A stretch of DNA of 64,000 nt from Bacteroidota bacterium (GTDB lineage Bacteria > Bacteroidota > Bacteroidia > Flavobacteriales_D > Sanyastnellaceae), in contig NVXE01000008.1 of the NCBI GenBank assembly GCA_002746975.1, forward strand, positions 33,667 through 97,666, given 5' to 3'. Position numbers and translations under genes: made by a program. The notes under the pieces were generated by a model. That model worked only from the letters and a program-made list of their open reading frames with translations, was not told the origin of the DNA and made no database searches. This document shows positions 5,337-20,620 of the stretch, piece by piece; the first letter of the stretch is position 1, and every line of letters starts with the position of its first letter.

Positions 5337-8300
5337 TTAGGGTTTGAGAACGACAAGTTTACTACCATATTGTGTAGAAGCACCATTTTTCGAAGTCATT
5401 TTAATTTTAAAGACATATACACCTGGCGAGACATTTACACCATCGTTTCCGATCAAGTCCCATTTAAGAACATCTGTACGACCACTGTGAGAAAAAAGTT
5501 CCGTTTTAAATACTTTTACTTGTCTTCCAGCCGCATCGTAAATTTCGACTACTACTTCTACTTCATTACAGGTTTGGTTATGAGAAACTTTAAATGAGAC
5601 GTATTCACTAGCAGGATTAGGGTAAGCTATTACATCCTGGAGAGCTACTTCAATTGAATTAGCAACGATAAATTTTGTAGTAGATAAAGTACTATTATTT
5701 TGCACATCCCAAACTTTTAATTCCAAAACATGTTCGCCCTCTTCAAGATCATTGAAAGGGTATCGGACAATCCCGCTTTTATAGGTATCCAAATCTGCCG
5801 AAAAGTATGTGTTTAAAACGAAAGGAGCATCGTACGCTTCATCGAGTACTGCTTTGAGGTCATGTCCTATACCATTCCCCACCGTGTTAATGCCACTTTC
5901 GTCATAAACACGTGCGTAAAGCCACGGATCTTCATTAGTAATGCCACCCTCGACAAATAATGAGTCATTCATAAATAAGTTTACTACCGGACCTACATCG
6001 TCGACAAGAACATCTTCTGAGGTTCCGCCAATAATGAAATCCTCAAAAGCCCCATGAGCATCAATGCTTTCGGAAACAGCATACAAGCTCACTCGTCCTT
6101 GACCTAAGGTATAGTCAATATCTCTAGGTACTACGAATTCGAACTCAAACACCCCGTTAACAACACTTGCTAACCCTTTGTGTATTACGTTTCTGAACAT
6201 CGTATATGAAAAAGCCCCTGCAACATTGTCATTATCAAGTGTACTTATCTGAGAACGCTTATCAAAAACTTTGGGATATAAAAAACCATTAAAATCCTCG
6301 AGAGTATCACCTAATTCCATGCCTACATACCCCTTCATTATGACGTGATCTAATGACTTAATCGTATCTGGAACCTCAGTCAAGAATATCTTGTGAGTCG
6401 GATAAGCGAGTTGCAGAGCGGGATCTCCTAGAAGCGAGAAATTCCTCATATTCGTCACACTTGTAACTAAAGGGCTGTTTTTCGTGTCCTTACAAATGTC
6501 TCCAAGGCAACGAACTTGAGATGTTCCAGTGTCTTCGTCAAGTACCGTTTGGAAAAATGCTGTGTTAAGCTCTTGATTTCCTCCGCTAAAAACTGTTCTA
6601 GTCGTTGTAAGCATTCCTACAGAACCACCATCTGGGTTGAATAGTAACATCTCCCCCGCAGATTCAACTTCGGGATCGTCATAGCGAGATAACTCACAAG
6701 TTGCCGTCATAAATATAGGAAGTCGCTTTTTATTTGTCCATTCACGAATCGTTGTCGTATTGAGAATTCTCTCGTGAGCCCAACCACGTTCTCCACCATG
6801 ACCGATATAATCAATTATCAAAGCTCCTTCTTCGACTTTCCTATCTATTTCTGCCTCTGCCTCATAATATCGCTCACCTCCTGGTGTAGCCTCTTGCTGG
6901 TATGAATCTGGATAAATCTTTATTATGTCGTATTCGCTGTGGTCTTGAGAAACTCTGTTAGAATGCACTTCGCTATCCGACATGTGGCGCCATCCATCGT
7001 TGTTGTTGCCATCTTGATCATCAGTAACAAATATTATCCTGTTACGCCACGCACCGAATGTAGTAGTTGATCCTTCAGGCTCACAACCCGCACCCTCAGA
7101 AAAATCTTCATTTGCGCCTAAATAAGTTTCTACTTTTGAAACATAAGCAAGGGCATGAGATAGAGTTGGAGCTGGAATACGTCCCACACCTATAGCAAGT
7201 TTATCGCCTGGAGATTCACCCATACCTTCTTCTAATAGTCCAAAATAATCATCTGTCACATAACTACTCACTGTACTCTCAGAATTTGCGCTTTGGAATG
7301 TTATAAGGTTCACTCCGTCAGGATTAAGATTCCTGTTATTATATCTACCATCTCCCATCAGAAGAAGATATTTGGGCTTATCTGCATCATTATCTGCCTT
7401 ATCCCAAAGCATCATCATAAGCATCTTCAATGCAGTTGGGTCTGGAGATCCTGATGAGAATGCATTAAAAACCTCTCTTTGGTTTACTATCGATACTCTT
7501 AATCCTCTGTCAGCATGAAGTGTCGCTATTCGCCTAGCAGCGGAATCGAGTTGAGGCACTGTAATAATTAGTAAGTCTGTATGACCCAAACTATGTAAAT
7601 TGAGATTCTTCACCCGTCCCATAGGCCTGACTTCTTTAGCCGCACTAAACCTAAAAGCGACGAAGCGCCTTGTTGTATCTTGACTTGCCTTCCACGAAAC
7701 ATCTTCTCCAGTATAGACTAAACTTTTATTTATCGGTGATAAAGGGTCGGTAATATCCCATATTTGGTCTACTGAAGAAGCGTCAGATAAAGTGTAATTC
7801 GCAGCATTTCCTATAGAAATATTTTCTGTCCCATTTATAAAAAACTGCCCTCCCGAAAACTTTAACCATTGCCTTGCTTGAACTCTAACGTAATCAATCC
7901 AGCCTTCAGCCTCATTATTCCCAGGTTCAAAGTGCATCTCAACATTCACACCATCTCCAGTCATAGGAACATTTACAGAAAGATTTCTTTTCTGTGCGAT
8001 AAGAAGACTACTGGAACTTAAAGAGATGTCATTTGTACTAGCTTCAGTTCCATTGCAAATTAATTTATAGCCACTTGTTGTACCAAGAGTTCTTCCTGCA
8101 ATTCTAGCATCAACCCATCCCGAATCTCCGGTAAGGTTAGGTATACTGAATCCCAAACCATAAACTTGACTTCCCAAATTTGTGAAATGTTCTCCATAAA
8201 ATTCTCGACCACTCTTTGCAATATTGTAGATCTCAATTTCATGAAATTCTTTAGCCCAATGAGTATCTAACTCGTCAAGAACAGGCAAGGTTTCCTCCAT

Positions 8301-9173
8301 AACATCAGTTATTCTACTCCCATCAAGATTAAGTTCCCCATCAAGGTTGAGAAAGTAATATGCACTATCACTCCAAGGATTTAATTCGTGTTCCCATCTT
8401 TCATATGACGAACTCCACTTCCAAGAATTAACACCCGAAGAGTGGAAATAAATCGCATCACCAGAATCGAATACCCCATCTTCTTCACCTTCGGTTCTAA
8501 CTTTTATTAAAGGCAGATCTAACGGCCTGTCAGAATCATTTTCAAATGGCAACATTCTACCGCCTCCACCGTATAGTTGTAATGCGTTAAAATTTAAAGT
8601 GTCTGGGTTTATCCCTGAAGCAACTAAGTCTGAATAACCAATCTTAAAAACCCCTTCTTGCCCAGTCGCGAACTTTACCCATGTCCCTTCTGAAAGCACT
8701 GAGTTTTCAGGCCAAACCCGTTGCATCCGATTCCCTGAAACTGGTGAATTTCCGATAATACCACTCCACCCTATAGACTTCTCCCACACTCCATTTTCTC
8801 TCTTTCTAAACTTGGGTCCTCGAAACTGAGCATACCACTCCCCGGTATTCATACCACGAACCACCATCCATTTCGATTTATTTGGTGATTCATCAACAGG
8901 CATAAACCCTAAATCAGCTATTTCCCATATCGTTTCTCCTTGAAGAACAACTACCCCAGACCATCGAGATGGAATCCTTATTTCACCAATAACATGATTA
9001 TCTAGTTCACCCTCGAATGAAAACTCAACGTCAACAACCTCACCTTCCTCTAAACCTCCATCAAGGATATTTTGACCTAAAACACTTGCTTGAGCAAGTA
9101 TCATTAAAACTATAATAACGGAAAACACACGAAGCTTTGTGCATATCATTTCGTGAGTATTGTAAATTATCAT
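5337..9173 (-). CDS. porU: Type IX secretion sortase-like protease PorU (gingipain family C25)
   Basis: Removes the C-terminal signal of T9SS substrates at the cell surface and transfers them to a lipid or polysaccharide anchor. The protein has 1278 residues, a signal peptide (VFSVIIVLMILAQA), an N-terminal beta-rich region and a C25 peptidase domain from about 540. The catalytic dyad appears as H792 in DYIGHGGERG and C826 in TATCELSRY. An Ig-like region follows, then a C-terminal T9SS-type domain (AYPNPASEYVSF, DAAGRQV, GVYVFKI). ATG at 9173 is the first start. ATG at 9149 would equally leave the signal peptide intact. porV follows directly. A TAnnTTTG box lies at 9216-9209. Confidence 0.95.
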   Translation of the reverse strand: MIIYNTHEMICTKLRVFSVIIVLMILAQASVLGQNILDGGLEEGEVVDVEFSFEGELDNHVIGEIRIPSRWSGVVVLQGETIWEIADLGFMPVDESPNKSKWMVVRGMNTGEWYAQFRGPKFRKRENGVWEKSIGWSGIIGNSPVSGNRMQRVWPENSVLSEGTWVKFATGQEGVFKIGYSDLVASGINPDTLNFNALQLYGGGGRMLPFENDSDRPLDLPLIKVRTEGEEDGVFDSGDAIYFHSSGVNSWKWSSSYERWEHELNPWSDSAYYFLNLDGELNLDGSRITDVMEETLPVLDELDTHWAKEFHEIEIYNIAKSGREFYGEHFTNLGSQVYGLGFSIPNLTGDSGWVDARIAGRTLGTTSGYKLICNGTEASTNDISLSSSSLLIAQKRNLSVNVPMTGDGVNVEMHFEPGNNEAEGWIDYVRVQARQWLKFSGGQFFINGTENISIGNAANYTLSDASSVDQIWDITDPLSPINKSLVYTGEDVSWKASQDTTRRFVAFRFSAAKEVRPMGRVKNLNLHSLGHTDLLIITVPQLDSAARRIATLHADRGLRVSIVNQREVFNAFSSGSPDPTALKMLMMMLWDKADNDADKPKYLLLMGDGRYNNRNLNPDGVNLITFQSANSESTVSSYVTDDYFGLLEEGMGESPGDKLAIGVGRIPAPTLSHALAYVSKVETYLGANEDFSEGAGCEPEGSTTTFGAWRNRIIFVTDDQDGNNNDGWRHMSDSEVHSNRVSQDHSEYDIIKIYPDSYQQEATPGGERYYEAEAEIDRKVEEGALIIDYIGHGGERGWAHERILNTTTIREWTNKKRLPIFMTATCELSRYDDPEVESAGEMLLFNPDGGSVGMLTTTRTVFSGGNQELNTAFFQTVLDEDTGTSQVRCLGDICKDTKNSPLVTSVTNMRNFSLLGDPALQLAYPTHKIFLTEVPDTIKSLDHVIMKGYVGMELGDTLEDFNGFLYPKVFDKRSQISTLDNDNVAGAFSYTMFRNVIHKGLASVVNGVFEFEFVVPRDIDYTLGQGRVSLYAVSESIDAHGAFEDFIIGGTSEDVLVDDVGPVVNLFMNDSLFVEGGITNEDPWLYARVYDESGINTVGNGIGHDLKAVLDEAYDAPFVLNTYFSADLDTYKSGIVRYPFNDLEEGEHVLELKVWDVQNNSTLSTTKFIVANSIEVALQDVIAYPNPASEYVSFKVSHNQTCNEVEVVVEIYDAAGRQVKVFKTELFSHSGRTDVLKWDLIGNDGVNVSPGVYVFKIKMTSKNGASTQYGSKLVVLKP

Positions 9174-9208
9174 TCTAATAATGCCAAATTTCGGACTTAA
9201 TTACTAAA

Positions 9209-9216
9209 CAAACGTA
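9209..9216 (-). promoter_or_regulatory. Putative -7 box for the porU-porV-ispF operon
   Basis: The minus strand reads TACGTTTG, an exact TAnnTTTG match, 35 bases upstream of the first porU ATG. No TTG is present at the preferred distance upstream, so support comes from the -7 element and its position only. Confidence 0.45.
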
Positions 9217-9276
9217 ATTGACACAATAATATTGTGGACGTTTATTAAGTATAAATTCCGTATTATTGTGAGTTCA

Positions 9277-10293
9277 ATGGGAACCTCTATGTTGAAAACA
9301 TCAATAACATCAGTTTTAAGCTTCTTGCTACTTGCAGGAATCATGGTTGTGAGCACATCTAACGAAGCGCTTGCACAAGATCCGGAATTCACGCAATACT
9401 ACGCTAACCCTCTGTTCTTAAACCCAGCATTTGCTGGGTCTGACAGATGTCCTCGGCTAGTTATGGCTTACAGAAATCAGTGGCCTGCGATGAGTGGCGC
9501 TTATGTTACTCAAGCCGTTTCGTATGACCAACATTTGCAGAGTATTCAAGGTGGTTTGGGCTTGACAGTGATGCGTGATCAGGCAGGCCAAAATACACTT
9601 TCTACCACTCGTGTCACTGGAATGTACGCTTATCAACAAGCTTTAACCAGAAAAATCTCTCTTCGAGCAGCTCTTGAAGCAAGTTATTTTCAGAAAGCTC
9701 TAGATTGGAGTAATCTAACTTTCGGTGACATGATTGATCCTCGTCGAGGATTTATCTACGAAACTCAGGATACACCTAGAGGAGGAACAGTCCAAAATGT
9801 TGACTTCGGTGCAGGATTCCTGCTATTTACTGAAAAATTCCACATAGGGTTTGCAGCTCACCACCTTAACGAACCTAATGAGTCTCTCGTCGTAGGATTG
9901 AGTCGTCTACCCATGAAGCTGACTGTACATGGAGGTGGTAAATTTCCATTAAAAACAAATGTTCGTAAAGAAGTTGTTGCCTCAATTTCTCCTAGTTTCC
10001 TGTTCCGAAGACAAGCTGAGTTCAGGCAAATGAATTTAGGTCTATTCGTAAATAAAGGACCTCTTTTTGGAGGAGTTTGGTATAGAGGTGTAGTATTTAC
10101 TCAATACAGAGACGCTTTAATAGCAGTATTAGGTATAGAAACCGATATTATGAGATTTGGATATAGTTACGACATTACTATATCCGAGCTAACCCCAGCA
10201 TCTGGTGGTGCTCACGAGCTAAGTATGACTTTAAAATTTGATTGTACACAGAAAAAAGGCAAGTTCCGCAAAATACCTTGCCCTACTTTCTAG
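9277..10293 (+). CDS. PorP/SprF-family type IX secretion membrane protein
   Basis: Outer-membrane protein of the PorP/SprF family. PorP itself belongs to the core T9SS. SprF-type paralogues are dedicated partners for secreting adhesins with a type B C-terminal domain. The start is probably the ATG at 9277 (ATG at 9289 also possible), giving 338 residues with a signal peptide ending at NEALAQ. The diagnostic beginning of the mature protein, DPEFTQYYANPLFLNPAFAGS, is present, and the C-terminus carries GAHELSMTLKF. It lies between divergent porU and codirectional gldJ. No adhesin gene is adjacent, so I cannot say whether it is the core PorP or an SprF paralogue. Confidence 0.88.
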   Translation: MGTSMLKTSITSVLSFLLLAGIMVVSTSNEALAQDPEFTQYYANPLFLNPAFAGSDRCPRLVMAYRNQWPAMSGAYVTQAVSYDQHLQSIQGGLGLTVMRDQAGQNTLSTTRVTGMYAYQQALTRKISLRAALEASYFQKALDWSNLTFGDMIDPRRGFIYETQDTPRGGTVQNVDFGAGFLLFTEKFHIGFAAHHLNEPNESLVVGLSRLPMKLTVHGGGKFPLKTNVRKEVVASISPSFLFRRQAEFRQMNLGLFVNKGPLFGGVWYRGVVFTQYRDALIAVLGIETDIMRFGYSYDITISELTPASGGAHELSMTLKFDCTQKKGKFRKIPCPTF

Positions 10294-10375
10294 TTATATA
10301 TAGTACCTAACGAATAAATATCGAAGGAGCTCACCTGCAAGATCGATAAACTAACATTCTCAAATAAAGATTAAT

Positions 10376-12124
10376 ATGACCTGGAAACAACCCTCAAGCA
10401 TACTCTCGCTTCTTGCTGTGTTGACTATTCTTTCTGGATGCTACTACGAGCGTTCTGGAGCTACAGGATGGAGTTACAATAGTACCGATAATGGTGGTTT
10501 TGAAAAACCTACTTTCTTTGAACAACAAACTGGTCCTGGCCTAGTTCTCATTGAAGGTGGAACCTTCGCTATGGGGCAGGTAGAAGACGATTTAATGGGA
10601 TCATGGGATAATGCTCCTCGAAGAGTTACAGTATCATCATTCTATATGGATGAAACTGAGGTAACCAACATCTACTGGCTAGAATACCTTACTTGGTTAG
10701 AAAGAGTTTACGGTAATTCATTCCCTGAAATTGTTGAAAGAGCTCTGCCTGACACACTCGCTTGGAGAGAAAAACTCGCATATAATGAACCGTTAGTAAA
10801 GTATTATTTAAGACACCCTGCTTACAGAGATTATCCAGTTGTGGGAGTTTCTTGGAGACAAGCAAACGACTTCTGTAAATGGCGTACTGATCGTGTAAAC
10901 GAAGAAATATTAATAAACGAAGGTTTATTAGTTCATAGCCCTCAATCTCAAATAGATGAGGAGCATTTTACTACTGAAACTTATTTTAACAGGCAATACA
11001 GTGGAGAGAGAGAAATTGAAGGAGTAGAGGATTTCCGTCCTAACTCAAGTGGATTTAGAGATATTAAGTTAGAAGACGGTCTGCTATTACCTGACTATAG
11101 ACTTCCAACAGAAGCGGAATGGGAATACGCTGCTTTAGGACTTATAGGGAATAGTTATGGCGAACTAATTGAGGAAAGGCGCACTTACCCATGGGATGGT
11201 CATTATGTACGTAATGATGACCTTAGATCTAAGGGCTATGGAAATATCAATGCTAACTTCGTTAAAGGTCGAGGTGACTTTATGGGTGTTGCAGGAGCTC
11301 TAGATGACTTCGGTGATATAACTGTTGAGGTTCATAGTTATGCTCCTAATGATTATGGGCTATTTAACATGGCTGGTAATGTAAACGAGTGGGTCATGGA
11401 TGTGTATAGACCTATGTCAAATCTTGATAACGAGGAGTTTAGACCGTTCAGGGGTAATAATTACCAGACTATGATTCAGGATCCTGAAGGAAATCCCGAA
11501 GACAAGTATGATTATGTAGTTTATGATATTCCTAGCATAACTCAATTTCTCGTTGATTACAGAAGAGATAAGAGAGGTATAGGTATGACTCCAGAAGATG
11601 AAGAGTTGCTTAATGGACTAGAGCTTAAGCTCGAGGAGGCTACTGAGATGAGTCGTAAAAGCCAAGAAGAAGAAAGTCAAACTCAGATTGCTGAAGCGAT
11701 GGATTTAATTGAAGAAAGTGAAGCTATTATTGCTGCAGATTTGAGAAAAGGATTCAGTAAGAATATTACTGCAGTGCCTGGAGACATGAAGTATCGCGAT
11801 GTAACACTAGAAGAGAACTTAGGACGTACGAACTACAGAGTTGCTGATAACATTGATTACCGCGATGGAGATTTAAATAGCTCTACTATGTTTGGGAATG
11901 CTGAAGATGGAGTCGCTAATGAAAATCGTATGTATGATTACGGAAACTCTTCTTTGATAAACAATGAGTCTCGTGTATATAAAGGCGGAAGTTGGAATGA
12001 TAGAGCATATTGGTTGGTTCCAGGAACTAGAAGGTTTATGGATGAACGTAAATCTTCAGCAACCGTAGGGTTCCGTTGCGCTATGACTAGGGTAGGCACC
12101 CCTGTTCCTTACCAAGGACAGTAA
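10376..12124 (+). CDS. gldJ: Gliding motility/T9SS lipoprotein GldJ
   Basis: Periplasmic-side outer-membrane lipoprotein required for gliding and for stability of the GldK/GldL/GldM machinery in flavobacteria. The 582 residues begin with a lipoprotein signal (lipobox ILSGC, lipidated C22), followed by the GldJ-typical segment ATGWSYN. A formylglycine-generating-enzyme-like (SUMF1) fold follows, with MGQVEDD, LPTEAEWEYAA, NMAGNVNEW and GGSWNDRAYW. Residues about 404-455 are rich in Glu, Lys and Gln and look like a coiled-coil insertion. GldK shares the SUMF1 fold, but the N-terminal motif, the length and the neighbouring porU/porV and murF favour GldJ. A hairpin terminator follows. Confidence 0.92.
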   Translation: MTWKQPSSILSLLAVLTILSGCYYERSGATGWSYNSTDNGGFEKPTFFEQQTGPGLVLIEGGTFAMGQVEDDLMGSWDNAPRRVTVSSFYMDETEVTNIYWLEYLTWLERVYGNSFPEIVERALPDTLAWREKLAYNEPLVKYYLRHPAYRDYPVVGVSWRQANDFCKWRTDRVNEEILINEGLLVHSPQSQIDEEHFTTETYFNRQYSGEREIEGVEDFRPNSSGFRDIKLEDGLLLPDYRLPTEAEWEYAALGLIGNSYGELIEERRTYPWDGHYVRNDDLRSKGYGNINANFVKGRGDFMGVAGALDDFGDITVEVHSYAPNDYGLFNMAGNVNEWVMDVYRPMSNLDNEEFRPFRGNNYQTMIQDPEGNPEDKYDYVVYDIPSITQFLVDYRRDKRGIGMTPEDEELLNGLELKLEEATEMSRKSQEEESQTQIAEAMDLIEESEAIIAADLRKGFSKNITAVPGDMKYRDVTLEENLGRTNYRVADNIDYRDGDLNSSTMFGNAEDGVANENRMYDYGNSSLINNESRVYKGGSWNDRAYWLVPGTRRFMDERKSSATVGFRCAMTRVGTPVPYQGQ

Positions 12125-12145
12125 TCTAATTGACAGACAATATTT

Positions 12146-12181
12146 AAAGCCCTAGCGTACTTTGTACGTTGGGGTTTTTTT
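12146..12181 (+). terminator. Rho-independent terminator after gldJ
   Basis: AAAGCCCTAGCGTAC, a TTT loop and GTACGTTGGGG followed by seven T residues form a stem with a few wobble or mismatched pairs and a proper U tract. The position, 22 bases after the gldJ stop and just before murF, fits. Confidence 0.8.
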
Positions 12182-12192
12182 AATCCAAAACG

Positions 12193-13485
12193 ATGACGAC
12201 TGAAGAACTTTACGAAATTTATAAAGGTGCCGAAAATGGGGTGACTACTGATAGTCGTAAATGTGGTCCGGGGATGTTATTTTTCGCTTTAAGGGGGGAG
12301 AACTTTGATGGAAATCAATATGCTACAGAAGCGATTAATGCTGGTTGTGTCGCAGCTGTGGTGGATGACACAAAAGTGAATAATGTAGATGGAGTAATTG
12401 TCGTTGAGGATGTCCTTACATCAATGCAAGAACTAGCGAAAATGCATAGAAGAACTTTTGATATACCAGTTCTAGGACTTACTGGAAGTAATGGCAAGAC
12501 GACAACTAAGGAGCTAGTTACTGCAGTATTAGCTAAAAAATATAAAGTTCACGCTACTGAAGGCAATTTAAATAATCACATTGGCGTCCCTTTAACCTTA
12601 CTTTCTACTCCTTTGGACTGCGAGTTTTTGATTGTTGAAATGGGTGCTAACCATATCGGTGAAATAAGCTATTTAGTAAATATTACAGAACCTAATCTAG
12701 GTATTATAACAAATATAGGATTAGCTCATTTGGAAGGTTTTGGTGGGAAAGAAGGGGTGAAAAAAGGCAAAAAAGAATTATTTGATTATTTAAGAGATAT
12801 AGAATCTACTGTCTTTATTCATGGTGATCATCAAGAGTTGCTTGAAATATCAACTGGTATGAATAGAGTGATTTTCGGAACGAAAGAGCACTTGCCGGAA
12901 GTAAGGTTTATCGCGCAGGGAAATGGCAGGAAATTTGTTTGGTCTGAAAACGGATACGAAAGCGACCACAAAACCATAAAGTTAGAAGGGGACTACAACT
13001 TGGACAATATCGCCGCCGCTATTACGATAGGCCGGTTTTTTAATGTCGAAAAAAATGACGTTGAAACTGCAATTTCAGAATACACACCTACGAATAACCG
13101 CTCACAGGTATATGACACAGGAAATAATGAAATACTGTTAGATGCATACAATGCGAATCCCTCAAGTATGGAAAAGGCCATATTATCTTTTGAGAAAAAT
13201 TCGAATCACCCTAAACTTGTCATCTTGGGAGATATGAGAGAACTCGGAAGTCACTCAAGAGAATCTCACCAAATGGTAGTTAATCTTTGTAAATCACTTC
13301 ACCTTGATTCTATTTTCGTGGGTGAGGAATTTATGAGTGTCGAAGATGAGGAAATAAAGATGAGGTTTTATAGTACTATTGATGAATTGATGGATAACCT
13401 AAGAGAGGAAACGTTAAAAAACAAAAGTATTTTATTAAAAGGGAGTAGAGGGATGGCAATGGAGCAATTACTACCCCTACTCTAA
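12193..13485 (+). CDS. murF: UDP-N-acetylmuramoyl-tripeptide--D-alanyl-D-alanine ligase
   Basis: Adds D-Ala-D-Ala to the UDP-MurNAc-tripeptide in the cytoplasm, the last soluble step of peptidoglycan precursor synthesis. The 430-residue length fits. The N-terminal domain carries TDSRK, the ATP-binding loop GLTGSNGKTTTKE begins near residue 96, HIGVPLTLL and EMGANHIGEI follow, and the third domain has DAYNANPSSM and LGDMRELG. The start is the ATG at 12193, about 12 bases after the gldJ terminator. The gldJ-murF adjacency recurs in Flavobacteriia. Confidence 0.96.
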   Translation: MTTEELYEIYKGAENGVTTDSRKCGPGMLFFALRGENFDGNQYATEAINAGCVAAVVDDTKVNNVDGVIVVEDVLTSMQELAKMHRRTFDIPVLGLTGSNGKTTTKELVTAVLAKKYKVHATEGNLNNHIGVPLTLLSTPLDCEFLIVEMGANHIGEISYLVNITEPNLGIITNIGLAHLEGFGGKEGVKKGKKELFDYLRDIESTVFIHGDHQELLEISTGMNRVIFGTKEHLPEVRFIAQGNGRKFVWSENGYESDHKTIKLEGDYNLDNIAAAITIGRFFNVEKNDVETAISEYTPTNNRSQVYDTGNNEILLDAYNANPSSMEKAILSFEKNSNHPKLVILGDMRELGSHSRESHQMVVNLCKSLHLDSIFVGEEFMSVEDEEIKMRFYSTIDELMDNLREETLKNKSILLKGSRGMAMEQLLPLL

Positions 13486-13488
13486 TCT

Positions 13489-13496
13489 TATCTTTG
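13489..13496 (+). promoter_or_regulatory. -7 box immediately before tyrS
   Basis: TATCTTTG matches TAnnTTTG exactly and ends only four bases before the tyrS ATG at 13501. With the usual 5-7 base distance from box to transcription start, the transcript would begin at or inside the start codon. No TTG element is seen at 17-23 bases upstream. Confidence 0.55.
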
Positions 13497-13500
13497 CATA

Positions 13501-14775
13501 ATGGATTTGATAGCAGAATTAAAATGGAGGGGGATGTTACACGACATCATGCCCGGTTTGGAGGAGCAACTTGTGAAAGAATGCACTACAGGGTATGTTG
13601 GATTTGACCCAACAGCTGATTCACTTCATATAGGGAATTTGGTGCCGGTAATGCTACTTGTCCACTGGCAGAGAGCAGGACATAAACCTATGGTTCTAGT
13701 AGGAGGAGCTACTGGAATGGTGGGAGACCCAAGTGGGAAATCTAAAGAGAGACAACTTCTGGACCTTGATGTTATGCAGCATAATCTAGATTGTCAAAAA
13801 GCCCAATTAGAGAAATTTCTAGATTTTGAAGGAAATAATTCTGCTGTTGTAGTAAATAATTTCGATTGGTTTAAGAATCTAAATTTCCTTGAATTTATCC
13901 GTGACGTGGGTAAGCATATTACGGTAAATTATATGATGTCTAAGGATAGTGTGAAAAATCGCTTAGAACAAGGAATGAGCTTTACTGAATTCTCCTATCA
14001 ACTTGTTCAGGGATATGACTTCTATCACCTCTGGAAGAATAAGAATTGCATGGTCCAAATGGGGGGCAGCGACCAGTGGGGAAATATTGTCACAGGAACA
14101 GAGCTCATTCGCAAAAAGGGCGGAGGACAGGCGTTTGCTATGACAGCTCCGCTAATAACTAAAGCGGATGGAAGTAAGTTCGGCAAGAGTGAAGGTGGGA
14201 ATATTTGGATAGATAAGAATAAGACTTCTGCGTATAAATTTTATCAATATTGGATAAATGCCGCTGATGAAGATGCGGGGAAGTATATTCGAATTTTTAC
14301 TCTCAAGACTAAGGAAGAAATTGAAGCTCTCGAAGCTTTACATTCAGAAAACCCTAGGGCTAGAGTCCTCCAAAAAGCTCTTGCAGAAGATATAACCCAA
14401 AGAGTTCACGGAAAGGATGACTTAAATACAGCTATCGCTGCATCCGGTATTTTATTTGGCAAAAGTGCAAAATCAGATCTTGAATCACTTCCAGAATCTG
14501 AATTTCTTTCTGTCTTTGAAGGTGTCGACAAAGCTGAGATAAAAATACACACTGTGAATGAAGGTGTAAGCATTATCGATTTACTAAGTGAACACACCGG
14601 ATTTCTATCCTCAAAAGGAGAAGCTAGGCGAGCATTAAAAGAGAATAGTATAAGAGTGAATAAAGATTTGGTAGATGATTCTAAGACCATTTCTAACGGC
14701 GACCTTATTAATGGACGACAACTTTTACTTCAAAAAGGGAAAAAGAATTACTTCCTAGTCCTAGTGAAAGAATAG
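13501..14775 (+). CDS. tyrS: Tyrosyl-tRNA synthetase
   Basis: Class I aminoacyl-tRNA synthetase charging tRNA-Tyr. The 424-residue length is normal for the bacterial enzyme. The HIGH-type motif is HIGN at 43-46 and the KMSKS-type motif is KFGKS at 226-230. QLVQGYDFYHL and QMGGSDQWGNI line the tyrosine site. A C-terminal S4 RNA-binding domain begins near residue 355 (SSKGEARRALKENSIRVN). The start is the ATG at 13501, 15 bases after murF, with its own -7 box in the gap. Confidence 0.97.
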   Translation: MDLIAELKWRGMLHDIMPGLEEQLVKECTTGYVGFDPTADSLHIGNLVPVMLLVHWQRAGHKPMVLVGGATGMVGDPSGKSKERQLLDLDVMQHNLDCQKAQLEKFLDFEGNNSAVVVNNFDWFKNLNFLEFIRDVGKHITVNYMMSKDSVKNRLEQGMSFTEFSYQLVQGYDFYHLWKNKNCMVQMGGSDQWGNIVTGTELIRKKGGGQAFAMTAPLITKADGSKFGKSEGGNIWIDKNKTSAYKFYQYWINAADEDAGKYIRIFTLKTKEEIEALEALHSENPRARVLQKALAEDITQRVHGKDDLNTAIAASGILFGKSAKSDLESLPESEFLSVFEGVDKAEIKIHTVNEGVSIIDLLSEHTGFLSSKGEARRALKENSIRVNKDLVDDSKTISNGDLINGRQLLLQKGKKNYFLVLVKE

Positions 14776-14783
14776 ATACTTGC

Positions 14784-15866
14784 CTATACTGTAAGAAGAT
14801 TACATCCACGGACTTCTGCGTGATCGAACCTCCCCAAAACCTCGAAATCACTAGACCCTATCTCGTTCCTAAGGCTACCTAGATCAGACGTTGATAAAAA
14901 GGAACAGCTATCGATATTTGCTAAATCTATAATTTGCAATCTACCTGTCCTACCTCGCTTCACTTCGGTTCCGGGATCTGATACATCACGAACAATAATC
15001 TCCATGGTCGCAGGGGGGGTGAAATATCTACCATCTGTACAATATGCTTGAGATAGCAGCTCAGTCATTCCGTACTCACTAATAATTGTGGCATTAGGTA
15101 TAACTCTTTTAATCCTTGAGTGTACTTCTTCTCTTATCGGTTCACGCCCATGACCTTTCATTCCACCAGTTTCAATAATGGTCAAAGAAGATTTGGCTAA
15201 TTTTTCACTCAGGCTATCCGAAATACCCGCAACCTCTAGCCAGCTTAAGAGAGCGTGAGTTACTCCAATAACAACAACAGGCCTATCGTTAGATAAAGTG
15301 CTCATTAGGTCATCCTGCAATGCCATATAATTATCTAAATAAAACCTATCTGACTGTTCTGAAATATCCATAAATGATTTCGCCATAGCCACTAATGAGG
15401 CATCTCCCCTATCTATATACCCCGGCAATAATGCAAACCAAATGCATTCCTTTACTGGCCTAACTAACCTACTATAAATCTTATTCGAAACCTCATTATA
15501 CCAAGCAACTGATCTTATTCTATGCTCTGATCGTGCTCCTGAATTTGAAGTTCCGGAGCTACGATAGATAACTTCAGGTTCAAATTCTCCTGAAATAACT
15601 TTATGAGATCGAAAAAACTCAACTGGCATAAACGGAATATCTCGATAATTATTCACTTTCATCCAATCGATTCCCATTAAGCTCACAAACTCCCTATATA
15701 CCTCATTATTAGCTACTTGAAAAGCAAATACTTTTAAAGCTACATCCTTAAAACTGACTGACAGCTCATAATTAAGTAGACTTCTAACACTATCCACTAA
15801 AAGTGAATGTTCAGATTTAAACTTAGTTTCAAAAGGTTTATTTGAGTTTTTTTGTGGAACGCTCAT
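14784..15866 (-). CDS. LuxE/PaaK-like acyl-activating (acyl-protein synthetase) enzyme
   Basis: A 360-residue member of the LuxE branch of the adenylate-forming superfamily, which activates a carboxylic acid with ATP and transfers it to a protein or carrier. The phosphate-binding loop IYRSSGTSNSGARSEHR is near residue 105. TIIETGGMKGHGRE and SEYGMTELLSQAYC are the mid and adenine-site motifs, and the small C-terminal lid follows IIDLANIDSCSF. Its substrate is unknown. No LuxC-type acyl-CoA reductase, acyl carrier protein or ketosynthase lies nearby, so the bioluminescence name should not be transferred. It ends 8 bases from tyrS (convergent) and diverges from the lipoprotein gene at 15900. 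Confidence 0.82.
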   Translation of the reverse strand: MSVPQKNSNKPFETKFKSEHSLLVDSVRSLLNYELSVSFKDVALKVFAFQVANNEVYREFVSLMGIDWMKVNNYRDIPFMPVEFFRSHKVISGEFEPEVIYRSSGTSNSGARSEHRIRSVAWYNEVSNKIYSRLVRPVKECIWFALLPGYIDRGDASLVAMAKSFMDISEQSDRFYLDNYMALQDDLMSTLSNDRPVVVIGVTHALLSWLEVAGISDSLSEKLAKSSLTIIETGGMKGHGREPIREEVHSRIKRVIPNATIISEYGMTELLSQAYCTDGRYFTPPATMEIIVRDVSDPGTEVKRGRTGRLQIIDLANIDSCSFLSTSDLGSLRNEIGSSDFEVLGRFDHAEVRGCNLLTV

Positions 15867-15886
15867 GGGCGTAAGTTCGGAAGTGG

Positions 15887-15894
15887 TAGCTTTG
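15887..15894 (+). promoter_or_regulatory. -7 box immediately before the lipoprotein gene
   Basis: TAGCTTTG matches TAnnTTTG exactly and ends five bases before the ATG at 15900. It sits in the 33-base gap between two divergent genes, so the upstream part of this promoter must lie inside the LuxE-like coding sequence. No TTG is visible at 17-23 bases. Confidence 0.5.
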
Positions 15895-15899
15895 AATTA

Positions 15900-16412
15900 A
15901 TGAAAAATTGGAATTTTAGTTCGGAATTATTGTTGATTAGTGCTATTTCTGCCACTTTCCAACTGACTAGCTGCATACCCGCGCCTAATTACCCCATTGA
16001 ACCTAGTATTGAGTTCATTGCCTTTGAAGTCGATGAAAGTAATCACGCAATACTTTCGTTTCAATTCACTGATGGTGATGGAAATTTAGGTTTAGACCAA
16101 ACCGACACGCTTCCTCCCTTCTGCACTTCATGCGAAAACCATTTCAATCTAAAATGTGAGTACGATGAACTCAGAGATGGTGAGTGGGTTCATATCCCAC
16201 TTATTCCTGCTCAAGGCCAGGTGCCGTTTTACTATCGCGTTCCTAGGGTTGAACCCTCGGGCAGTAACCCCGCACTTAATGGCGTCATAGAGATAGCAAT
16301 GAATACATGGAGTCTAAAGTCTAGCTACGATACATTAAGGTTTCGCCTTACTCTTGAAGATAGAGATTTAAATATCTCTAACGAGGATACTACTCGTGTA
16401 ATAATAAAGTGA
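15900..16412 (+). CDS. Small secreted lipoprotein, function unknown
   Basis: I chose the ATG at 15900 because it gives a classical lipoprotein signal peptide (hydrophobic stretch, then QLTSC with lipidated C25). The longer frame would extend into the divergent neighbour. The mature 145 residues contain FQFTDGDGNLG, a calcium-loop-like Asp/Gly segment frequent in Bacteroidota surface lipoproteins, and two further cysteines in FCTSCENH. The C-terminal part looks like a single beta-sandwich. I do not recognise a named family. It stands alone, ending at a shared bidirectional hairpin. Confidence 0.8.
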   Translation: MKNWNFSSELLLISAISATFQLTSCIPAPNYPIEPSIEFIAFEVDESNHAILSFQFTDGDGNLGLDQTDTLPPFCTSCENHFNLKCEYDELRDGEWVHIPLIPAQGQVPFYYRVPRVEPSGSNPALNGVIEIAMNTWSLKSSYDTLRFRLTLEDRDLNISNEDTTRVIIK

Positions 16413-16427
16413 TTCTAATAAAATAAA

Positions 16428-16452
16428 ATGGGCACCCCTTTAGAGTGCCCAT
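16428..16452 (-). terminator. Hairpin terminator between convergent genes
   Basis: ATGGGCAC and GTGCCCAT form a perfect 8-base-pair stem with a 9-base loop. On the minus strand the stem is followed by ATTTTATTTTATT, a usable U-rich tail, so it mainly serves the long gene that ends at 16511. On the plus side the tail is weaker but may also stop the lipoprotein transcript. Confidence 0.75.
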
Positions 16453-16510
16453 TCCTCTAATTAAATAGAGATTGATTAGAAAGAAAGATACTTATACCTT
16501 CTTTAAATTA

Positions 16511-19500
16511 TTATTGACAAGCCTGTCCAAATGCAGATAGGAATTGTAACAAGTCAGCTGCAGTCACTGTTCCGTCACCATTAATATCTGCTGGGCAAGT
16601 ACTAGTGCCAACAGTGAAAGTACAAGTGCCGTCATCTACAGTCGCACCATTAGTAAAGTTATCCGCATCTGGGTAAGTACATCCGTAACAACCGTAAGTA
16701 CAAGTTGTGTTATCTGCTAAGTAAGCAGTAGCATTATAGTTACATGCAGTAGCATCATTGCAACCGAAAGCAGATGAGTTTGCAGCACCAGGTGTACCTC
16801 CATCAACCCAAGATGCTTGCCAGTTAGAACCTAAATCATTGCCCATTCCTAGAGTACCTGCGTTGTAAGCAGCTAACACCTCTGGGATATACTCTAATGA
16901 AGAACAACCACCATTAGGGTTACTGATTAGAGTGCTTCCTAGAATACTAAACCCAGCTCCAGGCCATGTTCCAGTAGAAGCATAAGTAACTGCATTTACT
17001 ACGTTACCCCATGCATCTTGAAGAGAAAGAGCCTCTCCGCTGTTTGAGAAGTTTCCTAAATCCATAGTAAACACCTGATATCCATTACCAGCATAGTTAG
17101 GAGTTCCTAACCCACCTGCAACAGTAATAACTACAAACTCTCCAGCTGCTAACACAGTTCCTGCAGGAAATACCATTCCTAATTGAGGAGCACCAGATGC
17201 TGAGTTGTAGAAGTTGTAACCAGAAATATCAGCAGGAAGATCACCTATATTATGTAGCTCACAGAATTCCCAATCGAAATCATTACCCTGTGAAGAACAA
17301 GGGTTAAAGTGAATCTCATTAATAATTATAGACGGCAATGTGTAGTAACACAGTGTATTGTCAGCTAACGTAGTATTAATATTGTAGTTCAGAGCTAATG
17401 GATCAAAACATCCTGTAATCACACAAGAACCATCATCTGCAACAGCAGCAGGATCGTAGTTATCTGCAGCAGGATTTGTACAACCAGCAAGATTAGAACA
17501 AGAACCATCATCTTCAGCAGCTTGTGGATCAAAATTAAGGAAAGTCAGATCCGTACAACCTAGTCTAACAACATCAAGGCTATTCCGTGGGATAAGCTTC
17601 CAAGCTCCGAAAGAATAGAAGTTAGGTCCAGTTACTCTGTAAGTAACTCCAGCAACAACTACAGGCATGTTTACCAAACCAACTAGAGTACTATCAGTGA
17701 TAGCATTATAAGCCATTCCACTTACTTTAACAATTCCAGATCCATCATCTAGCAACCACTCTGTATATCCAGCATTTGGATTAACTACAGGAGCAACTAC
17801 TTGAGTAAGTACGCTTTCCCACTGCTCATCATTAACAGCGAATGTAGAAACCAATTCTGGAGCAGGAAGAACGTTTCCTGAAGAGACAATTGTAGGGACA
17901 GCACCTGCGATTTGGCGTAAGCCGTAAACTTCACTTACAGTTCCTGTTACATCTAACAAATCTCCAACTGCGACACCTGAACCTATACACCAAATAGCTG
18001 AGAATGGACCTGTACCATTCTGAATTACGTAAGAAGGGTTATTTGAAAGTGCTGATGAAGCTGCGAATACAGCTGTTACGGTTCCACCTGTCATAACCTG
18101 ACCACTTACTAGCCCATTATGGATCTCCTGAACAGTTAGGTTAGGAATATAGATACAAGAACCATCATCGGTAGTGGCTGTACTATCATAGTTAGTAGCT
18201 CCTGGATCTGTACACCCACTAGTGCTAACAGCACAACCATTTGTGAAGACATGAGATCCTAAATTAGACCAATCATTAAGTGGGTTAACTATCCACTCCC
18301 CATCGAATTCGTTAGTTCCAGCAGAAGCTGCCCACATTCCTGCGTTACCTGCATTAACATCCGATTTACGTACTAGAGTATGGTTTTGTGTTGCATTTGC
18401 AACTCCTGAAACAATAAATCCAGTCCCAGGATCAGGACCTATACTTCCGATAAGATCAACAAGAACGGTATCTACTCCTACAATCTCTGCAAGACCGTAT
18501 GTATCGTCTCCATTAGATAAATATGTGTAAGTCATATCAGCTACTGCTAAAATCAAAGGATCTGCAGTAGGGTGAGCGATAACGTATGTGCTGTTAGGAG
18601 GAACAATTGCTCCAGCAGGGAATGTTAGAGTCCAGTAATCGAATTGATCTGTAATATATAAAGCTGCAGGAGTATTACATCCATTGCTACAATTAGCCAT
18701 TGTATACTGATCTAAGAAAATAGGAGAACTAGTAGGGTTGAAAAGCTCGATATACTTATTGTTTGCTGAACCCTCAGCAACTTCAGAAACAAACAATGTA
18801 CATGATGTGCCTGTAAAAATACATGAACCATCATTTACAGATGCAGTAGGATCGTAGTTATCAGCCTGAGTAAATGTGCAACCATATAAAAGAACATCAT
18901 TGACATCACGAGGTTGAAGTTTAAAAGCTCCAAATGAGAAATCCATAGCTCCAGTCACTTGTAAACTAGAACCTAAATTAACTAGTCCGGCAGCGATTGC
19001 TCCGAAACCTAAATCGTCAACAACTAATGCACCACTTGCATCATTAATTGACCACTCACCAAAACCAAGTGCTGGGTTTTCAACAGCACCCGAGGTTTGT
19101 ACCAAAACACCCTCCCATTGCTCCGCAGAAGCTGACAAAGTAGTAAGAACTTCAGCAGCAGGCAGTGCGTTTCCCTGACTTAGAATGGTGACTGTAGGAG
19201 TATTAATTTGAGTTAAGCTGAAGTTTTCAGCAACAACTCCAGACACATCTACTGCATCACCAATTTGCAACGCAACATCAGAACCATTAATCCAAATACC
19301 TGAGTATGGACCAACACCATCTTGAATAGTTGCTCTTGCACCATAAACTCCAGTTACTATACCTGATGTCAATACTCCAACACCTTCAAATAAACCTGTT
19401 TCCTGTCCTATTTGAATATCTGTAATAAATGTATAGGGAGAAGCTAAACAAGAACCATCGTCAAAGTCAGCAGCAGCATTATAGTTAGGAGCCACTGGGT

Positions 19501-20527
19501 CCATACAACCACCAATGCCTACTGTAATTGTTCCCACCATGCCTATAGCAGCGTGAGATCCAACTGAACAATCATAAGAATAAACACCTGGAATTGTAAA
19601 CGTATGTGAGCCAATGCAAACACCTCCCGATACTCCTGTAACAGAAGGGAAAGAAAACGCCTCAGGATTCCCAAAAGACAAGCCTGTCTGAGTTTCAATA
19701 TCACCATTAGCATTATGCGTACCACCAGTATTAACGAAGAAAACTAAGTCTCCTACATTAATGTTTAAAGCTGAAGGAGTAAAAGTGAAATTTGTTGCAA
19801 CAACCTCTATTCCGTCTAGGTTACAAGCATTCGGGAATAAACATGTTCCATCATCAGTATTTGCAGTAGGATCATAGTTCGTAGCGTTAGGGTTCATGCA
19901 TCCCGGAATAACTGGTCCACAAGTTCCAGTCATTGTGTGAACTCCTAAGTCTGTCCATGTATCTATTGGCAAAACACTCCATTCTGATGACGCAGCATCT
20001 ATTCCAGCGGAACTAGACCAAATTGGATTTCCTTGAGTGATGTCAGGATTTCTGACAAGAGTGTGGTTTTGTGTAGCATTTACAACTCCAGCAACAGCCC
20101 ATCCCGTTCCAGGATCACCTTGGTAATCACCTATAGCATCAACGAAAACGTGACTAAGTTCTGTCCCGAAAGCAAGCTTATATCCATCGTCTCCATTAGA
20201 CAAGAAATTATGCGTTTGGTTAGCTAAAGCAAGTATAGAGGGATCTGCAGACCCATGAGCGATTATGTAAACGCCTCCAGCAGGAATCGTTGCACCAACT
20301 GAGAACGTATTCCAATATTCGTACTGGCCAACAACTGTTGGAGCATTACTAACACTAGGGAAAGCGTATGTTGTTAAATCTATTGCAGCATTTGTTGGAT
20401 TATAAATCTCTAAATACTTATTGTTTCCGGACCCTTCAGCGTACTCTGAGAAAAACAGATCGCATTGGGCTTGAGTGTTTACAAACGACATAGTCGCTGC
20501 AACAAATAAAAATAAAATACGTTTCAT
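16511..20527 (-). CDS. Large secreted multidomain protein: lamin-tail domains, cupredoxin, Cys repeats, dockerin-like end
   Basis: Start chosen at ATG 20527 (MKRILFLFVAATMSF, cleaved after NTQA), giving 1338 residues; an in-frame ATG at 20557 lacks a signal-like beginning. Domains in order: lamin-tail domain (about 21-200); cupredoxin (about 242-337) with candidate type 1 copper ligands H271, C320, H325 and M330; OB-like domain (365-545); second lamin-tail domain (575-765); second OB-like domain (797-985); third lamin-tail domain (1065-1250). Nine roughly 25-residue repeats of the form GC...NYDP...DDGSC separate them. The C-terminus is a Cys-bracketed calcium loop, DINGDGTVTAAD, like half a dockerin. 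It is probably displayed or shed outside the cell. No specific function can be assigned, and no standard T9SS C-terminal domain is visible. Confidence 0.85.
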   Translation of the reverse strand: MKRILFLFVAATMSFVNTQAQCDLFFSEYAEGSGNNKYLEIYNPTNAAIDLTTYAFPSVSNAPTVVGQYEYWNTFSVGATIPAGGVYIIAHGSADPSILALANQTHNFLSNGDDGYKLAFGTELSHVFVDAIGDYQGDPGTGWAVAGVVNATQNHTLVRNPDITQGNPIWSSSAGIDAASSEWSVLPIDTWTDLGVHTMTGTCGPVIPGCMNPNATNYDPTANTDDGTCLFPNACNLDGIEVVATNFTFTPSALNINVGDLVFFVNTGGTHNANGDIETQTGLSFGNPEAFSFPSVTGVSGGVCIGSHTFTIPGVYSYDCSVGSHAAIGMVGTITVGIGGCMDPVAPNYNAAADFDDGSCLASPYTFITDIQIGQETGLFEGVGVLTSGIVTGVYGARATIQDGVGPYSGIWINGSDVALQIGDAVDVSGVVAENFSLTQINTPTVTILSQGNALPAAEVLTTLSASAEQWEGVLVQTSGAVENPALGFGEWSINDASGALVVDDLGFGAIAAGLVNLGSSLQVTGAMDFSFGAFKLQPRDVNDVLLYGCTFTQADNYDPTASVNDGSCIFTGTSCTLFVSEVAEGSANNKYIELFNPTSSPIFLDQYTMANCSNGCNTPAALYITDQFDYWTLTFPAGAIVPPNSTYVIAHPTADPLILAVADMTYTYLSNGDDTYGLAEIVGVDTVLVDLIGSIGPDPGTGFIVSGVANATQNHTLVRKSDVNAGNAGMWAASAGTNEFDGEWIVNPLNDWSNLGSHVFTNGCAVSTSGCTDPGATNYDSTATTDDGSCIYIPNLTVQEIHNGLVSGQVMTGGTVTAVFAASSALSNNPSYVIQNGTGPFSAIWCIGSGVAVGDLLDVTGTVSEVYGLRQIAGAVPTIVSSGNVLPAPELVSTFAVNDEQWESVLTQVVAPVVNPNAGYTEWLLDDGSGIVKVSGMAYNAITDSTLVGLVNMPVVVAGVTYRVTGPNFYSFGAWKLIPRNSLDVVRLGCTDLTFLNFDPQAAEDDGSCSNLAGCTNPAADNYDPAAVADDGSCVITGCFDPLALNYNINTTLADNTLCYYTLPSIIINEIHFNPCSSQGNDFDWEFCELHNIGDLPADISGYNFYNSASGAPQLGMVFPAGTVLAAGEFVVITVAGGLGTPNYAGNGYQVFTMDLGNFSNSGEALSLQDAWGNVVNAVTYASTGTWPGAGFSILGSTLISNPNGGCSSLEYIPEVLAAYNAGTLGMGNDLGSNWQASWVDGGTPGAANSSAFGCNDATACNYNATAYLADNTTCTYGCYGCTYPDADNFTNGATVDDGTCTFTVGTSTCPADINGDGTVTAADLLQFLSAFGQACQ

Positions 20528-20620
20528 TATAGAACGGTTTGGTTTTGAGTAGGCCAATTTACGAGGTTTTGTCTAATAAAAACTAGTTTTCAGGGAGTTT
20601 TTATACAGTTACGTCGAGTT

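Follow-up and report, generated by a model that had tools for sequence, protein, structure and literature searches.

A cysteine-bracketed, dockerin-type unit at the free ends of exported proteins exchanges with T9SS tails in one family of Bacteroidota

T9SS tails are commonly used to list the surface proteins of Bacteroidota. The T9SS type A sorting domain has an Ig-like fold and a PNP motif, and PEP-CTERM-like tails are defined by a transmembrane helix and a basic end. The latter are reported to be a short C-terminal homology region common to unrelated exported proteins (PMC1569441). For solved two-loop dockerins, a Tyr-Pro clasp that holds head and tail is reported (PMC4728124). NCBI names a two-loop relative of the module described here 'GC-type dockerin domain-anchored protein'. 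The phrase 'GC-type dockerin' was not found in the open literature searched, and a search of that literature for a cysteine-bracketed end module returned nothing on it.

The window, the whole stretch of 64,000 nucleotides that was analysed, belongs to a 2.39 Mb assembly that is 95% complete. It encodes a large exported protein with such a module at its C-terminus.

16511..20527, minus strand: module-bearing exported protein of 1338 aa (open reading frame and translation)
20465..20527, minus strand: signal peptide MKRILFLFVAATMSFVNTQAQ (sequence reading and a crude hydropathy scan)
19520..19798, minus strand: cupredoxin-like domain, residues 244-336 (PF00127)
16979..17335, minus strand: lamin-tail domain, the best of three stretches, residues 1065-1183 (PF00932)
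16622..16684, minus strand: last DDGTC-type repeat, slightly upstream of the module (sequence)
16517..16597, minus strand: module of 27 residues, made of a cysteine, two residues, a 12-residue calcium loop, a helix and a cysteine (sequence)

Pfam assigns LTD (E 2e-37, in three stretches) and Copper-bind (E 3e-8) to this protein, which ends in CPADINGDGTVTAADLLQFLSAFGQACQ. The stop codon occupies 16511-16513 and the last cysteine 16517-16519, with the first loop aspartate at 16588 and the first cysteine at 16597. By sequence reading, the putative calcium ligands D-N-D-T-T-D fall on loop positions 1, 3, 5, 7, 9 and 12. Sequence, coordinates and residues agree with the preliminary description, which had reported a single loop with these ligands between two cysteines. 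The signal peptide that it had noted is present at the N-terminus, and the absence of a T9SS C-terminal domain is borne out by the lack of any NCBIfam T9SS tail at E<=1 for this protein. A 61-residue AlphaFold model, of low overall confidence (pLDDT 65), places a helix at residues 46-59, and its sole Foldseek match is a dockerin at E 9.8. Short repeats of the form GC..p.A.NY...A..DDGSC occur in the window protein (seven by pattern) and in many other module proteins; no Pfam model covers those of the window protein at E<=1.

The module is real, common and not a product of chance. When the entire assembly was searched for the last 33 residues, 71 matches were obtained at E<=10 and 45 at E<0.001, and all 53 unit-bearing open frames were read. 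The motif is not unique to the window protein, and its place is a free terminus: 39 of the 53 frames carry it at the extreme C-terminus and 14 directly after the signal peptide. The preliminary description had proposed this count, and had named two refuting outcomes, a motif confined to this protein or one found in cytoplasmic or internal positions as often as at C-termini; neither appeared, internal copies being confined to three of the 39 C-terminal frames. A degenerate DNA pattern search for the motif gave no match, the pattern being probably too strict. Between 0 and 4 residues follow the match in every C-terminal copy except L068, whose match is to the leading unit of a pair. Sixteen of the 39 are clean two-unit tandems by pattern, and the other 23 include the degenerate tandem L068; the single loop of the preliminary description holds for the window protein but not genome-wide. 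In L052, L066 and L070, the closing cysteine of the last unit is lost, and these are the three frames with an extra internal unit, devoid of cysteines and about 110 residues upstream. The bodies of the 39 carriers vary widely and include metalloproteases, sortilin-like proteins, an endonuclease, a subtilase, an amylase, a sulfotransferase and choice-of-anchor B proteins, among others.

The 14 N-terminal copies are less uniform. Both cysteines are present only in L054; seven copies keep the opening cysteine only, two the closing one only and four neither. Because 13 of the 14 have an incomplete bracket, they may be a separate thing or serve a different use. Among these N-terminal frames, L084-L089, L079 and L080 (contigs C2 and C6) form paralogue groups with similar, presumably FISUMP-like bodies and an incomplete cysteine bracket.

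The carriers look exported throughout. Contig ends truncate four of the 39 C-terminal frames, and 31 of the 35 intact ones pass a crude signal-peptide scan. On inspection, L050, L053, L059 and L072 each show a hydrophobic segment near the frame start that ends in SQ, GQ or AQ; in three of the four this segment precedes the chosen Met. Thirteen of the 14 N-terminal frames pass the same scan, and the remaining one, L071, starts with a hydrophobic stretch that lacks a basic residue. All 49 frames with an intact start look exported (44 by the scan, five by inspection) and none looks cytoplasmic, which answers the question of signal peptides raised with the original motif.

Expansion of the module is almost restricted to the window's own bacterial family (f1), which belongs to the Flavobacteriales, and the module is rare elsewhere in the order and phylum. 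Order-wide, a unit match at E<=0.001 was found in 146 of 399 genomes; these comprise 111 of the 114 f1 genomes, many with at least 20 matches, and 35 of 285 genomes outside f1, each with 1-3. At the level of the phylum, a match was found in 15 of 395 genomes, two of them f1 genomes with many matches and the other 13 (of 393 outside f1) with one or two. Three of the outside matches were opened. A protein of a neighbouring family (L264, f9) has a single C-terminal copy with both cysteines, and L265 has an internal copy. In yet another family, the C-terminus of one frame is a dockerin-type loop that lacks cysteines (L266, G761:C112:9000-10400).

Within the lineage of the window protein, the module is conserved. 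A genome contig scan yielded 43 loci, one of them (L232) cut before its end, and of the 42 relatives whose end is visible, 41 retain the module; the exception is a distant protein with a different end (L234, labelled Neomarinimicrobiota). All 41 end in a single unit, in which C1, P2, D4, N6, D8, G9, D15, L16, L17, L20, F23 and C27 are invariant (41/41), with F19 and G24 present in 40. Where relatives are named, they are bins from metagenomes and mostly carry the labels Flavobacteriales, Crocinitomicaceae or Bacteroidetes. Two contigs labelled Rhodopirellula and Euryarchaeota (L216, L217) encode relatives that are 62-66% identical to the window protein, and they are probably misbinned or mislabelled.

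The sequence of the unit is of dockerin type. A profile of 35 C-terminal units (L052, L066, L068 and L070 left out) matched the PDB chains 2y3n_B (E 7.8e-11, over both of its loops), 2ccl_B (1e-6) and 1ohz_B (2e-6), with EF-hand proteins ranking lower than dockerins; with a two-unit tail alone, the EF-hand protein 2jnx_A (1e-5) came out slightly better than 2y3n_B (7e-5). Against Dockerin_1 (PF00404), the window end scores 14.5 bits, below the Pfam gathering cut-off of 22.9, and six of the 39 C-terminal paralogues match at E<=0.001. Two duplicated F-hand loops, the criterion for a type I dockerin, are found in 16 of these paralogues and not in the window protein with its one loop. Against NF041540 ('GC-type dockerin'), the window end reaches 18.2 bits, below the curated cut-off of 29; three of six two-unit tails tested exceed that cut-off (39.3, 34.0 and 31.8 bits), single-unit tails give 14.6-18.2 bits or no match, and 11 of the 39 full proteins match at E<=0.01. 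Judged by its sequence, the unit is half a type I dockerin, that is, one F-hand, with added cysteines. According to the model scores, some two-unit forms belong to the NCBIfam 'GC-type dockerin', with the single-unit form below its cut-off. By the tests run, the single-unit end of the window protein is not a member of the two-loop dockerin family, and it may work in a dockerin-like way.

The tandems largely keep their cysteines. All four were present, within loose windows, in 55 of 55 distinct two-unit tails, many of them from related genomes, although the pattern that collected these tails did not require cysteine. In L068, missed by the two-unit pattern, the second and third cysteines are both lost and the first and fourth are kept. 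By our reading, the first and fourth cysteines of the two-unit form would lie at places comparable to the Tyr-Pro clasp. This pattern, together with the pseudo-twofold symmetry of dockerins, underlies a speculative proposal that we regard as a long shot: single units could be halves of a dockerin that pair in trans. Tandems would have their first cysteine joined to the fourth, head to tail, and their second to the third, across the linker; two single units on different proteins could close the two-loop fold with two cross disulfides. A second surface-assembly system would then operate beside T9SS in f1, its paired calcium-loop ends locking dozens of exported proteins together or to a common receptor.

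The dockerin match of the unit profile would also be expected if the module were a classical cohesin-binding dockerin of a cellulosome-like scaffold. One module-rich genome, G049, encodes a protein organized as a scaffoldin would be: L244 (G049:C45, about 54.6-56.4 kb, minus strand) has repeats that score 52.2 bits as cohesin (PF00963), in two stretches according to Pfam and in four by our reading, and ends in a two-unit module. This layout, which looks scaffoldin-like, occurs in one genome of f1 only. A profile of the G049 cohesin repeats found no other convincing relative in the 114 f1 genomes, and the loops of the tandems are spaced by 28 residues (29 in one of 16), compared with 33 in 2y3n. 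PF00963 has no match at E<=1 in the window's genome, where a diverged cohesin could be missed; the co-occurrence with cohesin-like genes envisaged by the preliminary description did not materialize there. We consider a cohesin-dockerin scaffold very unlikely as the explanation, and cohesin is rejected as the general partner in the window's genome as far as the Pfam model and two small profiles tell.

The wider search for a partner followed several lines. PF00963 matches in 12 of the 114 f1 genomes at E<=0.01 and above cut-off in five. The G049-repeat profile gave 12 other loci, of which eight were opened and none was convincing as a cohesin: five are TolC-type-efflux-like by our naming, one is HYR-rich, one is aminotransferase-like and one has no useful frame. 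In L243 (G039), a cohesin domain (27.2 bits), a dockerin-like loop and a Por_Secre_tail above cut-off share one chain; the similar L247 reached 26.5 bits in the genome cohesin search, yet the Pfam scan showed no cohesin in it. A protein of the window's genus (L267, G156:C27:1-4800) combines an AhpC/TSA-like, redoxin-like N-terminus with DDGSC repeats, internal dockerin-like loops and a T9SS tail; its cohesin-like stretch is below the PF00963 cut-off and absent from the Pfam scan. A two-domain cohesin-like profile found nothing convincing in the module proteins collected or, within the window's genome, in 25 long proteins with T9SS tails (frames of at least 700 residues among its 79 TIGR04183 matches, porU left out). 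No recurrent neighbour gene was seen by eye in eight neighbourhoods.

T9SS tails and the module exclude each other in the window's genome. TIGR04183 has 79 matches there at E<=0.1, 70 of them above cut-off, and none coincides with the 53 module frames. For 70 tails and 53 module frames drawn from an assumed exported pool of 500 proteins, an overlap of about 7 is expected and the probability of none is 2e-4; it rises to 0.15 if the assumed pool is 2000.

The two kinds of end also replace each other on the same kind of body. Choice-of-anchor B proteins (TIGR04312) are found in 109 of the 114 f1 genomes, and 73 frames were assembled from the 30 best-scoring loci, 40 loci picked for variety of genus and length, and three frames of the window's genome included for carrying the module (a fourth TIGR04312 match there lies outside the set). 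After two cut frames and a masked one were dropped, 38 of the remaining 70 end in the module, 25 in a T9SS-type tail, classed as type A by the PNP motif (four of four tested pass TIGR04183), and seven in another, 'IYDDGS' tail, set aside (two tested, neither with an NCBIfam match). Tails of the form 'LGREV...VFYIYDDGSAEKVFV' are carried by the choice-of-anchor B proteins L132, L136, L137, L142, L144, L145 and L149, for two of which a test gave no NCBIfam match, and possibly represent a further, unmodelled type. The PNP motif is absent from the last 160 residues of all 38 module-bearing proteins, as is the loop pattern from the last 250 residues of the 32 others. On a quick maximum-likelihood tree, with the seven other-tail proteins set aside, the module needs at least two changes. 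A single clade of module-bearing proteins is rejected (p-AU 1.2e-8, a test that the long branches L059 and L053 may affect), and two single-unit proteins of genus g5 are nested among T9SS-tailed proteins with SH-aLRT supports of 96-100. Since the module-bearing proteins do not form one clade, tails have been swapped.

A similar opposition is seen in copy numbers. In 26 of the 114 f1 genomes, which we chose from 13 genera, a higher density of module units per Mb goes with fewer T9SS tails per Mb (by genus, with ancestry uncorrected, Spearman -0.72, p 0.006; when three genera with lower-bound T9SS counts are removed, -0.81, p 0.005). Modules are numerous in g1, g7, g12 and g13. This comparison counts units rather than proteins, and the unit profile was built on the window's own genome.

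The window protein itself lies near T9SS genes, its own gene lying 4.4 kb beyond the last member of the following group in the same window.

5337..9173, minus strand: porU, T9SS sortase (NF033707, 1102.7 bits; context)
9232..10293, plus strand: PorP/SprF family T9SS membrane protein (TIGR03519, PF11751; context)
10376..12124, plus strand: gldJ-like lipoprotein (TIGR03524, 446.4 bits, slightly below the cut-off of 458.2; context)

A spacing comparable to that in 5337-20557 is seen elsewhere: among the matches listed, at least 15 genomes of four genera (g1, g2, g3 and g7) have a unit-bearing frame on the strand of porU, at a distance of 7.6-11.8 kb. Thirteen of these frames have 1324-1369 residues, similar in length to the window protein, and two are fragments; by position and length they are candidate counterparts of it. 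porU was detected in 50 of 50 f1 genomes with a completeness of 90% or more and a contamination of 5% or less. This neighbourhood and the exchange of tails would suit a module that is an unrecognised T9SS sorting signal, read by the machinery like a type A domain so that the protein is exported and its end removed or anchored. That explanation, which we judge unlikely but the weightiest of the alternatives, meets three difficulties. Fourteen of the 53 copies stand at the start of the mature chain in proteins that have no T9SS tail, L054 with a full bracket; most of them lack that bracket, so they may not count against it. The module has no similarity to the 72-position tail model. Finally, the eight counted genomes of g8 and g16 have porU and 79-97 T9SS tails with only 0-2 modules, so T9SS does not need the module.

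A more modest role would be that of an end cap, stabilised by calcium and disulfides, for repeat-rich extracellular proteins, with no binding partner. Many carriers are indeed rich in cysteine repeats such as DDGSC, and the loss of the closing cysteine of the last unit in L052, L066 and L070 has been taken on the same side. On the other hand, the exclusion of T9SS tails, their replacement on one kind of body and a spread of 90 to 0 units among the genera of f1 are not what a cap should produce. We regard it as distinctly improbable.

The interpretation we favour, which we rate as marginally probable, is that of a portable terminal docking or anchoring module that replaces the T9SS tail. In f1, exported proteins that lack a T9SS tail would bear it as one unit or as a tandem of two. 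The protein would first be exported by Sec, and the oxidised, calcium-loaded module would then hold it at the cell envelope or surface by binding a partner other than a recognisable cohesin in the window's genome. The preliminary description had left a choice between an export or attachment signal and a docking module. Attachment or docking is favoured because tails swap with T9SS domains; an export signal is weaker, because N-terminal copies do not fit a C-terminal code and because T9SS genera with 0-2 modules exist. The position after the signal peptide, taken by 14 of 53 copies, would depart from an always-C-terminal rule if these copies, only one of them with both cysteines, are the same module. 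These N-terminal copies, most without a full bracket, suggest a docking module rather than a C-terminal signal.

If the module is an alternative anchor, surface-protein lists based on T9SS tails would miss dozens of proteins per genome in f1. Units outnumber T9SS tails in the counted genomes of g12, g13 and g5, as well as in one of the three counted for g1. In addition, dockerin-type units are here used on proteins of a genome without a recognisable cohesin, and the choice-of-anchor B proteins supply naturally exchanged pairs with which the requirements of a surface anchor could be probed.

Among known systems, type I dockerins (PF00404; 2y3n_B, 1ohz_B, 2ccl_B) are alike in the 12-residue D-x-N-x-D-G loop, the aspartate at position 12, the LL-x-x-L helix and the location at a protein end. 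Unlike them, the module is a lone unit in the window protein, is bracketed by cysteines and has a tandem spacing of 28 rather than 33 residues; its bodies are mixed rather than a polysaccharide-degrading set, and no cohesin was found in the window's genome. The GC-type dockerin NF041540 is a 67-position, two-loop model, in contrast to the single-unit module. PEP-CTERM-like short sorting tails share the short C-terminal region on unrelated exported proteins, whereas the module has, by sequence reading, neither a transmembrane helix nor a basic end. The T9SS-tailed chains with cohesin and dockerin-like loops in relatives (L243) come from the same bacterial family and have comparable loops; there, however, the loops are internal and unbracketed, and a T9SS tail is present. 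The T9SS type A sorting domain (TIGR04183) resembles the module in its C-terminal position on the same kind of body, on exported proteins and in the same genomes; it differs as a 72-position model without sequence similarity to the module, whose loop also occurs at N-termini.
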